A stretch of 33,844 nucleotides of DNA from Actinomycetota bacterium (GTDB taxonomy: Bacteria; Actinomycetota; Coriobacteriia; Anaerosomatales; Anaerosomataceae): assembly GCA_009773565.1 (NCBI GenBank), contig WSXY01000016.1:1-33844 (forward strand), given 5' to 3'. Below, piece after piece: positions 13,596-23,450 of this stretch; positions within the stretch are counted from its first letter, which is position 1, and every line of letters starts with the position of its first letter. Below the pieces are notes generated by a model. The model made no database searches. It was given only the letters and a program-made list of their open reading frames with translations, and was not told the origin of the DNA. Both the position numbers and the translations under genes were made by a program.

Positions 13596-14954
13596 CTACG
13601 CCACGATCTCCCGAAGCGCAGCTCTGATCGCCGCCGGCATCCGCTCGTTGAGGCGCGCCGGATCTCCCATCGCTTTCCCGAGGATTCGCGTCGTGAAGGG
13701 TTTCGCCGTCTCGACGATATCGATCTCGGGGTACAGTGCCCGCGCCACGCCCTCGACCGTTGCGAGTGACTTGATGAGCAGGCCGTAGCCGCTCGGGATC
13801 TGCACGCCATGCTGACCGAGCAACTTCAAGAACCCGAGACCGAAATGCGCGAAGTCACGTGTGCCGTCGGGTCGGAAGGTGCCGTCGAGCAGCTCGCCGA
13901 GACCCGCACGAACCGGCTCGACGCGGTCGGGCGGAACGTTCACGCCAAGCTTCGCCGAGTACGTCAGCGCACGGTCGGGGTCGCGGTAGACGAGCGCGGC
14001 CATGACCTGCGTGATGTTCATGCGCTCCTCGGGCGTCAGATAGCCGACGATACCGAAGTCGAGATACGCGATGGTGTTATCCGGCGTCACGAAGAGGTTG
14101 GCCGGGTGCAGGTCCGCGTGGTAGCGACCGTACTCGAACACCTGCCGCATGAAGGCCGTAGCGCCATGCACCGCGAGCGCATAGCAGTCCACGCCGTTCG
14201 CCTTCGCGACATCGATCTCCGAGAGACGCCAGCCGGTCATGAACTCCATCGTGAGCACACGCGCGGTCGTGCGCGGCCACACGATGCGCGGCGCGACCAC
14301 CTTGGGGTCGTCGCGGAAGTCGAACGTGAAGCGGTCGGCAAAGCGGCCTTCAACCCGCAAGTCGAGCTCGCGGTCGACCGTGGCGGCGAACTCATCGAGG
14401 AGCGCGACCGGATCGAACCTGCGCGCTACGCGCATGCGCGCGACACGTTCCGCGAGCGAGCGCGCGATCGCGACATCCGCGCGGATCGCCTCGGCAGCAC
14501 CGGGGCGGACGACTTTGATGGCAAGCGCGGTTCCGGCCGGCAGCTCCTCGCCCCACACGGGCTTGTACGCCTGCGCGAGCGTTGCGCGGTGCACCTGTGC
14601 GATCGATGCCGAGGCGAGCGGCACGTCGTCGAACGTCGCCCAGAGATCCTCGGGATCGCACGCGAACTCCGAGCGGATCACATTCCGTATGACCGAGGCG
14701 GGCACCGCGGGCACGGCATCCTGCATCGATCGCATCTCGGTCACGAGTTCGTCGGAGAACTCATCGGGTCGTACCGATATGAGTTGACCGAGCTTGATGA
14801 ACGCCGGACCGAGGTCCTCGAATGCCTGCCGCCATGCTCGCGCGAACGCCGTACGACGCACGTGACCCGAAGCGAGACCGAAGCCCGCGGCGGGTAGGGC
14901 CGCGATGAGGCGTCGGGCAATGACGCTGATGATGGTAAGCCGTCTGGATGCCAT
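13596..14954 (-). CDS. AarF/UbiB/ABC1-family atypical kinase
   Basis: 452 aa from ATG at 14954 (GTAGGGG upstream); the longer open frame to 15329 is a shadow of the next gene. Hallmarks: KxGQ motif in AFIKLGQLISVRPDEF, Ala-rich loop SASIAQVHRA, Lys in LAIKVVRPG, ERELD-like DRELDLRVEG, catalytic YHADLHPANLFV and DFG in YLDFGIVGYL. The family has unusual ATPase/kinase activity and is tied to quinone or other isoprenoid lipid metabolism. Typical bacterial members are about 550 aa with a C-terminal pair of membrane helices; this one ends soon after ALYPEIDIVETAKPF...LREIVA, without that anchor. The upstream gene is 8 bp away on the same strand and encodes a small coiled-coil protein. Confidence 0.9.
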   Translation of the reverse strand: MASRRLTIISVIARRLIAALPAAGFGLASGHVRRTAFARAWRQAFEDLGPAFIKLGQLISVRPDEFSDELVTEMRSMQDAVPAVPASVIRNVIRSEFACDPEDLWATFDDVPLASASIAQVHRATLAQAYKPVWGEELPAGTALAIKVVRPGAAEAIRADVAIARSLAERVARMRVARRFDPVALLDEFAATVDRELDLRVEGRFADRFTFDFRDDPKVVAPRIVWPRTTARVLTMEFMTGWRLSEIDVAKANGVDCYALAVHGATAFMRQVFEYGRYHADLHPANLFVTPDNTIAYLDFGIVGYLTPEERMNITQVMAALVYRDPDRALTYSAKLGVNVPPDRVEPVRAGLGELLDGTFRPDGTRDFAHFGLGFLKLLGQHGVQIPSGYGLLIKSLATVEGVARALYPEIDIVETAKPFTTRILGKAMGDPARLNERMPAAIRAALREIVA

Positions 14955-14962
14955 GGTGGCCC

Positions 14963-15304
14963 CTACGACCCGGACTTGCGAACGAGCGTTTCGAGCAGAC
15001 CCTCGATATTGTCGAGCCGCCCGCGGAGTTCGCCGACTTCGAAGCGAAGCTCCTCGAATGCCGGGTCGGTCTGCTGCTCGATGGCGACTTCCTCGCCACG
15101 TGCACGCGCCTCGAGATCGCGCTTGAGCTTCTCCTTCTCCTCCGCGACCATCGCGGCGAGGCCGTTGACGAACGCATCGGGACCGCCGCCCATACCCTCC
15201 GGACCGCCGTCCTCGCCGCGAAGCACCGCGGCCTTGAGACCTTCGTCGGCAACTTCGTGCGTGAGCATCCACGCTGCGAAGAAGCTCATCACGTTGTCGG
15301 TCAT
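14963..15304 (-). CDS. Small coiled-coil protein of unknown function
   Basis: 113 aa from ATG at 15304, with a strong GGAGGG 6 nt upstream. The N-terminal part contains NVMSFFAAWMLTHEVADEGL; the middle is Gly-rich (EDGGPEGMGGGP); the rest is charged and helical, with heptad-like stretches (VAEEKEKLKRDLEARARGE and FEVGELRGRLDNIEGLLETL) that predict coiled coil. No enzyme motif or cleavable signal. It resembles phasin-like or scaffold-type helical proteins only in general character. It lies immediately upstream of the AarF-like kinase (8 bp), so co-expression is near certain and a partner role is plausible. No function is assigned. Confidence 0.75.
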   Translation of the reverse strand: MTDNVMSFFAAWMLTHEVADEGLKAAVLRGEDGGPEGMGGGPDAFVNGLAAMVAEEKEKLKRDLEARARGEEVAIEQQTDPAFEELRFEVGELRGRLDNIEGLLETLVRKSGS

Positions 15305-15358
15305 GAGAAACCCTCCAGTCGATTCGCACTTCCCCCAGGCGGCCGTCGGGTTTCCCCG

Positions 15359-15394: not shown

Positions 15395-15772
15395 ATGCGT
15401 ATGGGACACCTGATTCTAGTGATGTTTGGCGGCGCGCTCGGTGCGGGCGCGCGTTACGCCGTGGGCACGTTCGTTGGGAGCAAGTCAGGCGGCTTCCCGT
15501 GGGCGACGTTCGGTGTGAATGTCACCGGCGCATTCCTACTGGGGCTTCTCATGGGCGCCCTCGCAAGTAACGACGCGGCAGAGCCGTGGCGCCTGCTGTT
15601 AGGAGTCGGTGTGCTCGGGGGCTTCACGACGTTCTCCGCCCTGGCGTACGAGACACTCACACTGGCGAGCGACGGCGCGATGAGCCTCGGGATCCTGAAC
15701 ATGGCGGGAACCGGTGTCGCCGGTCTCCTCGCAGCCGCGCTCGGTCTCGTCGTCGGTCGCGCGCTCGCCTAG
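15395..15772 (+). CDS. crcB: Fluoride channel FluC/CrcB
   Basis: 125 aa with four membrane segments. Family signatures: MFGGALGAGARYAVGTF in TM1, WATFGVNVTGAFLLGLL in TM2 (with the pore Asn) and GVLGGFTTFSALAYET in TM3, which holds the central sodium site and fluoride-track Phe residues. It functions as a dual-topology dimer exporting fluoride; a single gene suggests a homodimer. ATG 15395 is used, although ATG 15401 is also possible. No fluoride riboswitch fold is seen, and there is no room for one if the promoter just upstream is real. The stop overlaps the stop of the convergent ATPase gene through a shared CTAG. Confidence 0.93.
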   Translation: MRMGHLILVMFGGALGAGARYAVGTFVGSKSGGFPWATFGVNVTGAFLLGLLMGALASNDAAEPWRLLLGVGVLGGFTTFSALAYETLTLASDGAMSLGILNMAGTGVAGLLAAALGLVVGRALA

Positions 15773-17925
15773 CGCTTCTTCAGCAGCCGCAACCCGTTCG
15801 CGATGACGATGAGGGCAACGCCGGTGTCGGCGAACACGGCCATCCACAGCGTCGCCTTGCCGAGAATCGCGAGCACGAGCACCGCGAACTTCACCACGAT
15901 CGAGAGCGTGACGTTCTGGGTGATGTTCGCGACCGTACGGCGGCCGAGTGCGAAGAAGCCCGGCAGCGCCGAGAGGTCGTCTCGCATGAGTGCGACATCG
16001 GCGGTCTCGACGGCAGTGTCGCTTCCGGCGGCGCCCATCACGATACCGAGGTCGGCCGCGGCGAGCGCAGGTGCGTCATTGATGCCGTCGCCTACCATCG
16101 CTACCACCCCGTACCGTTCTCGCAGCAGGCGGATCGCGTTCGTCTTGTCCTCGGGCAGGAGTCGGGCGTGGTACCCGCTCAGCCCGGCGCTCCCGGCAAC
16201 CGCAGCAGCGGTACGTTCGTTGTCGCCGGTGAGCATGACGAGATGCTCGATACCCGCAGCACGCAACGCGGCGGCGGTCGGTGCGGCCTCGGGACGCACG
16301 GTATCGGCAACTGCAAGGTAGCCGAGTGCCACACTGTCGGCGATCAGCACGAGGACGGTGCGTCCGGCCTCCTCGGCATGCTCGATGCGTGTCGCAAGCG
16401 ATTCAGCAACGTCGCCGATCTCTGAGGCGAACGATGGGCTTACAAGTCGGATGTGACGACCGTCGATGACACCGGCGACGCCACGGCCGGGAAGCTCCTC
16501 GAATGCTGCTACGGGCGCGAGCGTAGCGCCCTCGCGCTCCCCGTGCGCGACGACCGCGCGCGCGAGCGGGTGGTTCGAATTCGCTTCAAGCGAGACGGCG
16601 AGCGCCAGAAGGGCCTGCGGCTCTTCGGCGAAGACCTCGACGACTTCGGGTTTACCGAACGTCAGGGTGCCCGTCTTATCGAACGCGATCGCACGAACCT
16701 TCGCGGCTGTCTCTAGGAACGCGCCGCCCTTCACGAGGATCCCGTCGCGCGAGGCCCGCGTGATCGCCGAGACGATCGCAACCGGCGTGGAGATCACGAG
16801 CGCGCACGGGCACGAGATCACGAGCAGCACGAGCGCGCGGTAGAGCCACGATTCGAAGCCGCCCCACGGCTGTCCGAGCAGCGCCCCCGCTATCGGCGGC
16901 ACGATCGCGATGAAGACCGCGAGTCCCACCACTGCGGGCGTATACCACCGCGAGAAGCGCTCGACGAGTTGCTGCGACGGCGCCTTGGCGGCCTGCGCCT
17001 CCTCGACAAGGAAGATGATGCGCGCGAGCGTGGAGTCGGTCGAGATCGCCGTGACCTCGACCTCTACTAGACCGCTCGTGTTAAGCGAACCCGCGAAGAT
17101 GCGATCGCCCGTTGTCTTGTCGACCGGCACCGACTCGCCCGTCACAGGAGCTTCATCGAACGCCGAGGAGCCGGTCGCGATGACGCCATCGAGCGCCACG
17201 CGTTCGCCGGGCCGAACGATGAGCGTCTCGCCGATGAGAACCTCGGCAGGTGGGACGAGCACGTCGGCTCCGGACCGACGCACGCGGGCGAGCTCGGGCT
17301 CGAATGCCAGCAGGTCGCGAATCGAGCGGCGCGTGCGCGCAAGCGAGCGCGACTCGAGCCAGCCCCCAAGCGCGAACAAGAAGATGACGGTCGCGCCCTC
17401 CTGCCACTGACTGATGGCCGCCGCGCCGATGACAGCGATCGTCATGAGCACGTTCATGTCCAGCATGCGGGCCTTGAGTGAGACAAGCGCACGTCGCCAC
17501 GTGATAGTGCCGCCCGCGAGAATCGAGAGCGCATACGCGATTATCGCGACAGCGGCGGGCACCTCGAGCGCGTCGAGTCCCCACCCGAGCGAGATGAGCG
17601 CGCCGCTCGCTACGATCGCGACAGTCGTGCGGTTCGATTCCCACCACGACGACGGCGAGAGCTCGGCCGCGCCCTTACCGAGCGCCTCGATACCGTGTCC
17701 GCTCTTGCGCACGAGCGCCACGACCGTGTCCCGAGGATCGATCGCTGTGTCGTAATCGATCGTCAGCAGGCCGCTCGCGAAGTTGACGTCAGCGCACAGC
17801 ACCCCGGGAATACCGGTAACTGACGCGCCGACGGCGCGCGCACAATCCGGTCAATCGAGTCCCGTGAGCCGGTAGACGGCCGCGGCTGAGGTCGACGGCT
17901 CACTCACCTCATCGTCCACCCTCAC
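15769..17925 (-). CDS. Selenocysteine-containing P1B-type Zn/Cd/Pb-transporting ATPase (UGA at codon 25)
   Basis: 718 aa if the in-frame TGA at 17851-17853 is read as selenocysteine. The GTG at 17925 has AAGGAG 8 nt upstream and overlaps the end of the PH-domain gene by 17 nt. Codons 1-60 form a heavy-metal-binding domain: VYRLTGLD, then U25-P-D-C28 where CxxC is expected, then ARAVGASVTGIPG and VNFASGLLTIDYD. The transporter body is complete: TGES actuator loop, membrane CPC (372-374), phosphorylated Asp416 in DKTGT, HP (451-452), GDGINDAP (612-619), then K679 and D700 in the last two helices, the pattern of ZntA-like Zn/Cd/Pb exporters. Starting downstream of the TGA would discard half of the metal-binding domain. 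Alternatives are a nonsense mutation or sequencing error, but the SECIS-like hairpin argues against both. Confidence 0.85.
17812..17853 (-). promoter_or_regulatory. Candidate bacterial SECIS element
   Basis: Reading the minus strand, UGA is followed after 18 nt by a 3-nt apical loop GUC closed by a stem of six Watson-Crick pairs plus one G-U (GCGCGCC with GGCGCGU). A G in the first loop positions at 16-37 nt from UGA is what the bacterial SECIS model requires for SelB. A lower helix pairs ACCGG, beginning at the A of UGA, with CCGGU at 17812-17816. Not computed; folded by eye. Confidence 0.75.
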
Positions 17926-18451
17926 GGGCGCGGCTCCTTCGCGAATCGAGCTCGTGGATGAAGCGGTCCTGCTCGTCCGGCGAGATGCCATACCGCTCGC
18001 CACCGGCGGCGATGAGCACAACACCGCGATGCGACCGGGTCGAGCACATCTTCACGATGCCGATACCCCCGCCGTACTGCACCTTCCAGAGCGCAAGGCC
18101 CGGGAAGCGGAAGCTTGACCACGGCGAGAAGCGCAGATTCTCGATGCGAACGTCGGTGATGCTCGCGTACGGCAGGGCGTAGCGAAGGATCGGACCGTAG
18201 GTGATCACGAGCGCGTCCGATGTGAGGTCGTAGCGCATGCGCGGGAAGAACGCGATCGTGACCAGGAACCAAACGACGATCACGCCAATGAGCGCGTAGG
18301 TGCCGATTATGATGGCAAGGGCCTCGGCCGGTATCGGCTCCGCAAAGAGGGCTGCCGTCATAGGGACGACCATCGCGATCGCCAGTGCGAGCACCCAGAG
18401 CCACCCGAGGGACGGGAGCGGTCGGTAGTGTTCAACGGGCTCGGCGTTCAT
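17909..18451 (-). CDS. PH-domain-containing membrane protein
   Basis: 180 aa from ATG at 18451 (AGGGGAG upstream; a second ATG at 18472 lacks one). Two N-terminal membrane segments (GWLWVLALAIAMVVPMTAALF and a second ending VVWFLVTIAFFP) are followed by a cytoplasmic bacterial PH-like domain: RYDLTSDALVITYGPILRYALPYASITDV, then GGGIGIVKMCSTRSHRGVVLIAA and GISPDEQDRFIHELD. This layout matches small bacterial PH-domain membrane proteins of unknown role. Its last 17 nt contain the ribosome-binding region and start of the ATPase gene, so the two are probably translationally coupled. A link to metal export is only contextual. Confidence 0.8.
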   Translation of the reverse strand: MNAEPVEHYRPLPSLGWLWVLALAIAMVVPMTAALFAEPIPAEALAIIIGTYALIGVIVVWFLVTIAFFPRMRYDLTSDALVITYGPILRYALPYASITDVRIENLRFSPWSSFRFPGLALWKVQYGGGIGIVKMCSTRSHRGVVLIAAGGERYGISPDEQDRFIHELDSRRSRAREGGR

Positions 18452-22568: not shown

Positions 22569-23450
22569 TCAAGTTGCCAGGCGCTCGAGGTAGGACAGCC
22601 GGTACTCCACCGGAGTCCGATATCCAAGCGTCGAGTGCATACGCTGTCGATTGTAGAACAGCTCGATGTAGGAGAAGACGTCTTGCTTCACCTCCTCGAG
22701 ATCCTTGTAGTCCTTGTGGTGGATGCACTCGCGCTTAGCCGAGGAGAAGAAGCTCTCCGCCACCGCGTTGTCGAAGGGGCATCCGCTCTTCGACATCGAG
22801 CCCACGATCCCGTTGTCGGCCAGCATGCGCATGAAGCTCTTCGACGCGTACTGGATGCCGCGGTCGGAGTGGAAGACCGTCGGCGTATCGGTGACGCCGC
22901 GCCTGGCTATCGCCGAGGACAAGGCGCGCTTGACCAACTCGACATCGATCGACTTAGAGAGCGCGTGTCCGATCACTTCCCGGTTGAACAGGTCGATCAC
23001 GACCGCCAAATACGTCCACCCGAGCCTGGTCTTGATGTAGGTGATGTCACCAGCCCACACCTCGTTGGGACGAGGTGCGAAGAAATGCTGGTCCAAGGCG
23101 TTGTCGAAGAACCTGCCGTCGGCCTTGCCGGAGCGACCAGGGCGGAAACGTCTTGTCGTGATGGGGTAGAGGCCGGCTTCGCGCATGATTCTTCTCACCT
23201 TGTACTCGGACACGGCAAGACCGCTCTCGTTGAGCGCCCGCGACATCTTGCGGTAGCCGTAGACACGTCGGTTGTCCTCGAAGACCTTGCGCACGTGGCG
23301 CGTGAGGTCGCGGTACGCCTCGGCGCGCTCGGCACGCTGCTGCCGTCTCCTCTTCCACTGCCAGTAGGCAGAAGGCTTCAGCCCGAGCGCTTTGCACATC
23401 TTCTCCACGGTAAAGACGGGGCTGTGACGAAGGATCGCTTCGTACTTCAT
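22569..23450 (-). CDS. IS3-family transposase OrfB (DDE integrase core)
   Basis: 293 aa. An N-terminal HTH_21-like region (VRKVFEDNRRVYGYRKMSRALNE, KVRRIMREAGL) precedes the rve catalytic core: first Asp in WAGDITYIKTRLGW, second in VFHSDRGIQYAS, Glu in FDNAVAESFFSSAK, then YNRQRMHSTLGYRTPVEY. ATG overlaps the orfA stop (ATGA), and an A6 run about 40 nt upstream lets a -1 shift join OrfA and OrfB. All catalytic residues are intact, so it could be active. Confidence 0.92.
   Translation of the reverse strand: MKYEAILRHSPVFTVEKMCKALGLKPSAYWQWKRRRQQRAERAEAYRDLTRHVRKVFEDNRRVYGYRKMSRALNESGLAVSEYKVRRIMREAGLYPITTRRFRPGRSGKADGRFFDNALDQHFFAPRPNEVWAGDITYIKTRLGWTYLAVVIDLFNREVIGHALSKSIDVELVKRALSSAIARRGVTDTPTVFHSDRGIQYASKSFMRMLADNGIVGSMSKSGCPFDNAVAESFFSSAKRECIHHKDYKDLEEVKQDVFSYIELFYNRQRMHSTLGYRTPVEYRLSYLERLAT

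Follow-up and report, generated by a model that had tools for sequence, protein, structure and literature searches.

The window analysed here, a stretch of 33,844 nucleotides, belongs to the draft genome (2.27 Mb, 25 contigs, 98.5% complete) of an uncultured and probably anaerobic actinobacterium of the order Anaerosomatales (Coriobacteriia), and carries on its minus strand a gene for a heavy-metal ATPase whose frame contains a single in-frame TGA. The features of this locus are as follows:

15769..17925, minus strand: P1B-2 heavy-metal ATPase gene, predicted to contain selenocysteine (Sec), 718 residues with U25 (domain and family profile matches)
17934..17939, minus strand: Shine-Dalgarno sequence AAGGAG, 8 nt 5' of GTG 17925 (sequence)
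17671..17895, minus strand: HMA domain, beta-alpha-beta-beta-alpha-beta, with metal loop D24-U25-P26-D27-C28 (Pfam, AlphaFold2, Foldseek)
17851..17853, minus strand: predicted Sec codon TGA, residue 25, first ligand position of GLD-UPDC (codon comparison of orthologues)
17823..17839, minus strand: putative bacterial SECIS hairpin, 7 bp stem GCGCGCC/GGCGCGT with apical loop GUC (comparison and bSECIS rules)
16804..16812, minus strand: transmembrane metal motif C372-P-C374 (phmmer alignment to SsZntA)
15889..15891, minus strand: K679, aligned with the built-in counterion K693 of SsZntA (alignment)
15826..15828, minus strand: D700, aligned with the metal-binding D714 of SsZntA (alignment)

The ATPase frame extends from GTG 17925-17923 to the TAG at 15769, and the residues surrounding its TGA read VYRLTGLD-U-PDCARAVGASV. 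As the preliminary description had recognised, the ordinary open frame begins within the HMA domain (GTG 17802), and its upstream extension crosses exactly one TGA, located at the first Cys position of a CxxC motif; both frame reading and the Cys-containing orthologues described below bear out this placement. Standard annotation would start such pumps after the UGA and drop their metal-binding domain. The start codon proposed earlier, GTG 17925, does have a good Shine-Dalgarno sequence, although GTG 17907-17905 is the codon homologous to the start in one relative (L056); the Sec claim is the same with either start. Upstream of the ATPase lies a PH-domain (bPH_5) gene, and downstream, also on the minus strand, are a small protein frame (15454-15702) and a UbiB/ABC1-like kinase (13596-15329). 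A small protein from this group of genes recurs 3' of the pump in many relatives. An IS3-type transposase (rve, HTH_21) is found elsewhere in the window (22569-23450, minus strand).

Domain and structural analyses indicate that the extension restores a complete metal-binding domain. The Pfam HMA match covers residues 18-77 and crosses the TGA (E 2e-8), with the E1-E2 ATPase and HAD hydrolase domains C-terminal to it. AlphaFold2 predicts a complete ferredoxin-like HMA fold for residues 11-85 (mean pLDDT 94), in which residue 25 lies in the metal loop, the mechanical start falls inside the second strand, and strand 1, which the preliminary description had reported missing from the shorter frame, is encoded entirely 5' of the TGA. 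Solved structural neighbours of the model (Foldseek) include MerP, ATP7B domains, and the ZntA N-domain 1mwy. The full protein scores 585 bits against TIGR01525 (cut-off 346), its best matches are zinc/cadmium/mercury/lead ATPases, and its best solved relative is SsZntA (4umv). It shares with SsZntA and E. coli ZntA the E1-E2/HAD architecture, the CPC, K, and D transport-site residues that mark a P1B-2 pump, and an HMA domain of the D-C-x-x-C type, but where ZntA has Cys at the first motif position the window pump has Sec. The assignment as a predicted ZntA/CadA-like P1B-2 (Zn/Cd/Pb) exporter is supported by these alignments, and the pump class named in the preliminary description is favoured both by these residues and by the ArsR-family genes that stand beside many relatives.

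The host genome encodes the complete Sec machinery: a tRNA-Sec (SelC) with UCA anticodon (63 bits), SelB (380 bits), SelA (2e-152), and SelD, all inside about 12 kb of contig C16. SelD has an in-frame TGA of its own (motif GUAAK) and is itself a selenoprotein; its mechanical frame (L079:2597-3547 plus upstream sequence; G000:C16:24695-25612) begins 3' of that TGA. An in-frame TGA within a gene could also reflect genome-wide reassignment of the codon, for example to Cys or Trp, but TGA terminates at least five window genes, one of them the immediate upstream neighbour of the ATPase gene, and the presence of SelB and a tRNA-Sec with UCA anticodon, together with the association of the in-frame TGA with a hairpin, leaves this alternative a negligible probability.

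The homologue search covered 69 genomes from this order. Among 51 orthologous HMA domains (the middle domain being counted in three-HMA proteins such as L040), the codon aligned with residue 25 is TGA in 38, TGC or TGT in 13, and never any other. The number of HMA domains varies from one, as in the window, to two (a CxxC domain N-terminal to UPDC) or three (with UPDC or CPDC central). The 38 genomes with the TGA form were assembled separately; their pumps share 55-78% protein identity and have otherwise intact frames. Because relatives share either TGA or Cys at codon 25, a sequencing error is excluded; the draft state of the genome (25 contigs) would allow for misassembly or a decaying pseudogene, but the recurrence of the same TGA in intact frames across independent assemblies makes any such artefact scarcely credible.

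The TGA could alternatively be a true stop, with the pump translated from GTG 17802 without a working HMA domain and the upstream piece representing a short peptide or leader. A mechanical ORF of this extent (15769-17802) does exist, and some P1B ATPases have no HMA domain. Against this, the peptide upstream of the TGA is conserved as half of an HMA domain (GLD in 37/37, R in 36/37, with the third codon position the most variable), 13 orthologues encode Cys at the codon in question, several relatives have GTC in place of the internal GTG, and the hairpin following the TGA is retained in all 38 TGA genes. The conserved YRLTGLD strand and the missing GTG likewise speak against a frame that genuinely starts downstream, and we regard the true-stop explanation as very improbable.

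The hairpin in the window conforms to published bSECIS rules (PMC13188914, section 5), which specify a loop of 3-9 nt with G in one of the first two positions, a distance of 16-37 nt from the UGA, a stem of 4-16 bp, and an energy of -7.5 kcal/mol or lower. Its loop starts 18 nt after the UGA, its energy is -11.5 kcal/mol, and a lower stem lengthens it to about 17818-17847. Rfam returned no match within the window at the gathering threshold. The folding energy is ordinary for such GC-rich DNA (z -0.3 by dinucleotide shuffle; p 0.03 by synonymous shuffle), and in a scan scoring the upper stem alone only 16 of 42 Sec genes fell below -7.5 kcal/mol; since the energy is unremarkable for the base composition, the case for a SECIS rests on comparison. 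In a codon-by-codon alignment of these genes, which are related and should not be counted as independent observations, 38/38 TGA genes keep a 5-7 bp hairpin whose loop begins 17-18 nt after the UGA, while a 5 bp stem is kept in 0/13 Cys genes, though several of the latter encode peptides almost identical to the TGA forms. GU occupies loop positions 1-2 or 2-3 in 37 of the 38. Two pairing registers occur among the TGA genes (13 with position sum 46 and 25 with position sum 50), and codon usage follows them: the Arg codon is CGG throughout the 25-gene register and CGC throughout the 13-gene one, compared with CGC, CGA, or CGT in the Cys genes. Similarly, Thr is encoded by ACC in every TGA gene that has it and mostly by ACG, ACA, or ACT in the Cys genes, and pair 19-27 is either G-C or A-U among the TGA genes.

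Taken on this genomic evidence, the window pump is, with a probability of about 0.93, a selenoprotein: a P1B-2 (Zn/Cd/Pb) exporting ATPase with Sec25 in the D-U-P-D-C motif of its N-terminal metal-binding domain. The UGA at codon 25 would be read as Sec by SelA, SelB, tRNA-Sec, and SelD under the direction of the hairpin, a step well supported by genomics, and the ZntA-like body would, as homology supports, expel a soft divalent metal via its CPC/K/D membrane site.

Outside the order, homologues at 43-50% identity for which the motif was read have Cys, with the sole exception of a distant actinobacterium from another family of the phylum (L138), which has SelB, the motif GLDUPDCAQ, and a fitting hairpin (CTGCAAC-GCAAA-GTTGCAG). 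A further match, G391, also contains a TGA. A DNA motif scan of named genomes gave matches in Streptococcus, Polaromonas, and others, which were dismissed as chance, as their translations do not continue as HMA domains. SelB above the cut-off is absent from six of the 38 TGA-form genomes. Two of these six (G005 and G026, 96-98% complete) retain the hairpin, yet no SelA, SelB, or tRNA-Sec was detected in them, reflecting either the absence of the clustered locus from the metagenome-assembled genome or real loss. In one Cys-form genome, G029 (99% complete), SelA was not matched and no SelB match exceeded the cut-off.

On the orthologue tree the Sec/Cys state changes at least six times (seven on a quicker tree). 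L064 (CPDC) groups with L040 and L051 (UPDC) of the same family, and the Cys forms L043 and L057 group with the Sec form L052. As to the direction of exchange, the models disagree on the root state (Sec 1.00 within the orthologue clade versus 0.29 with outgroups). Replacement of Sec by Cys is described as rare in bacteria (PMC13188914). Orthologues have Cys in its place, which makes Sec an adaptation and not a necessity.

What Sec25 contributes to the pump can be approached through its position. By analogy with D-C-x-x-C in ZntA, D24, U25, and C28 would form the metal loop of the HMA domain. A selenolate has a lower pKa and is softer than a thiolate, and in this loop it would probably serve as a metal ligand or as a redox-sensitive gate, altering how tightly Cd, Pb, Hg, or Zn is bound in a reducing environment. 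An alternative is that Sec is inserted for redox gating, or for Se-regulated read-through in which the complete pump is made only in the presence of Se, and not for metal ligation. A regulatory function is commonly ascribed to the HMA domain of P1B-2 pumps, and this would suit such a role, as would the dependence of UGA decoding on Se supply. In addition, Sec mostly acts in redox chemistry (PMC13188914, section 8). Since the position is that of a canonical metal ligand, and the internal start that a truncated pump would need is not conserved, we judge this alternative unlikely, though by no means negligible. Tentatively, and at somewhat short of even odds, we propose that Sec25 is a true ligand that retunes the metal choice of the sensing domain (e.g. 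towards Cd, Hg, or Pb) and has no redox role, that the order has swapped Sec and Cys several times to leave natural pairs, and that a second pump of the host, with a T-U-x-x-C motif, serves another metal.

That second pump is a paralogue at C7:16222-18303 (L070:11220-13301, minus strand) with 44% identity to the window pump and the motif GIT-U-LDC. TGA is present in this gene and in all 11 relatives compared with it, and in their hairpin two synonymous changes compensate each other (GCC..GTG to GCG..GTC). The residue before Sec is Thr and not Asp; Thr before the first metal-ligand position is common in Cu(I)/Hg domains.

The gene neighbourhoods resemble CadC/CadA-type operons with ArsR/SmtB regulators in part. 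Many orthologues have an ArsR-family gene immediately upstream, often with an overlap at the ATPase start, and one is divergent from the C7 paralogue, whereas no ArsR-family gene adjoins the window ATPase, which is thus outside the CadCA-type operon layout, and the pump itself differs in carrying Sec. The upstream ArsR-family genes suggest that those orthologues may form metal-induced CadC/CadA-like units.

A heavy-metal P1B ATPase has been listed once before as a predicted selenoprotein (PMC13188914 table, its reference 60), and an open-access literature search for Sec-containing P-type ATPases found no paper beyond that review. The listed protein belongs to TIGR01525 and, like the window pump, has a UxxC motif that opens with Sec, a likeness drawn from the listing alone. 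Other predicted metal-handling selenoproteins include a putative mercuric transport protein, Sao components, and the Cu/Zn efflux transporter SO_0444 (PMC13188914); in these transport or resistance proteins, too, Sec stands at a probable soft-metal site, but their families and transport mechanisms differ from those of the window pump. Sec as a transporter metal ligand has accordingly been predicted in several families, with a role in detoxification held to be unresolved in the same 2026 review (PMC13188914). The window pump would belong to a kind already predicted, to which it is a strongly supported addition. The new elements are how widely the family extends, the comparison of SECIS hairpins, the exchanges between Cys and Sec, the existence of a second Sec pump, and the operon context: in place of a single listed accession there is an order-wide family of 38 TGA and 13 Cys orthologues with a conserved SECIS, a second Sec family, and ArsR neighbours. 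The order supplies many close Sec/Cys orthologues of one pump, including the sisters L040/L051 (UPDC) and L064 (CPDC), and with a pair of Sec pumps sharing a genome and a hairpin that pairs in either of two registers, both Sec-versus-Cys metal binding and SECIS evolution become directly testable.

Further P1B ATPases were observed on contig C7 and in relatives. At G000:C7:8126-10219 a small HMA protein (ELTCPSC) precedes a third P1B ATPase of the host, whose membrane motif is CPG and not CPC; pyrrolysine was considered for in-frame TAGs at this ATPase and rejected, the TAG being the stop of the separate small HMA protein. In several relatives (L069, L071, L072, and L073) another P1B ATPase lies in tandem with the second Sec ATPase; its match begins only at residue 92 and includes no HMA domain.
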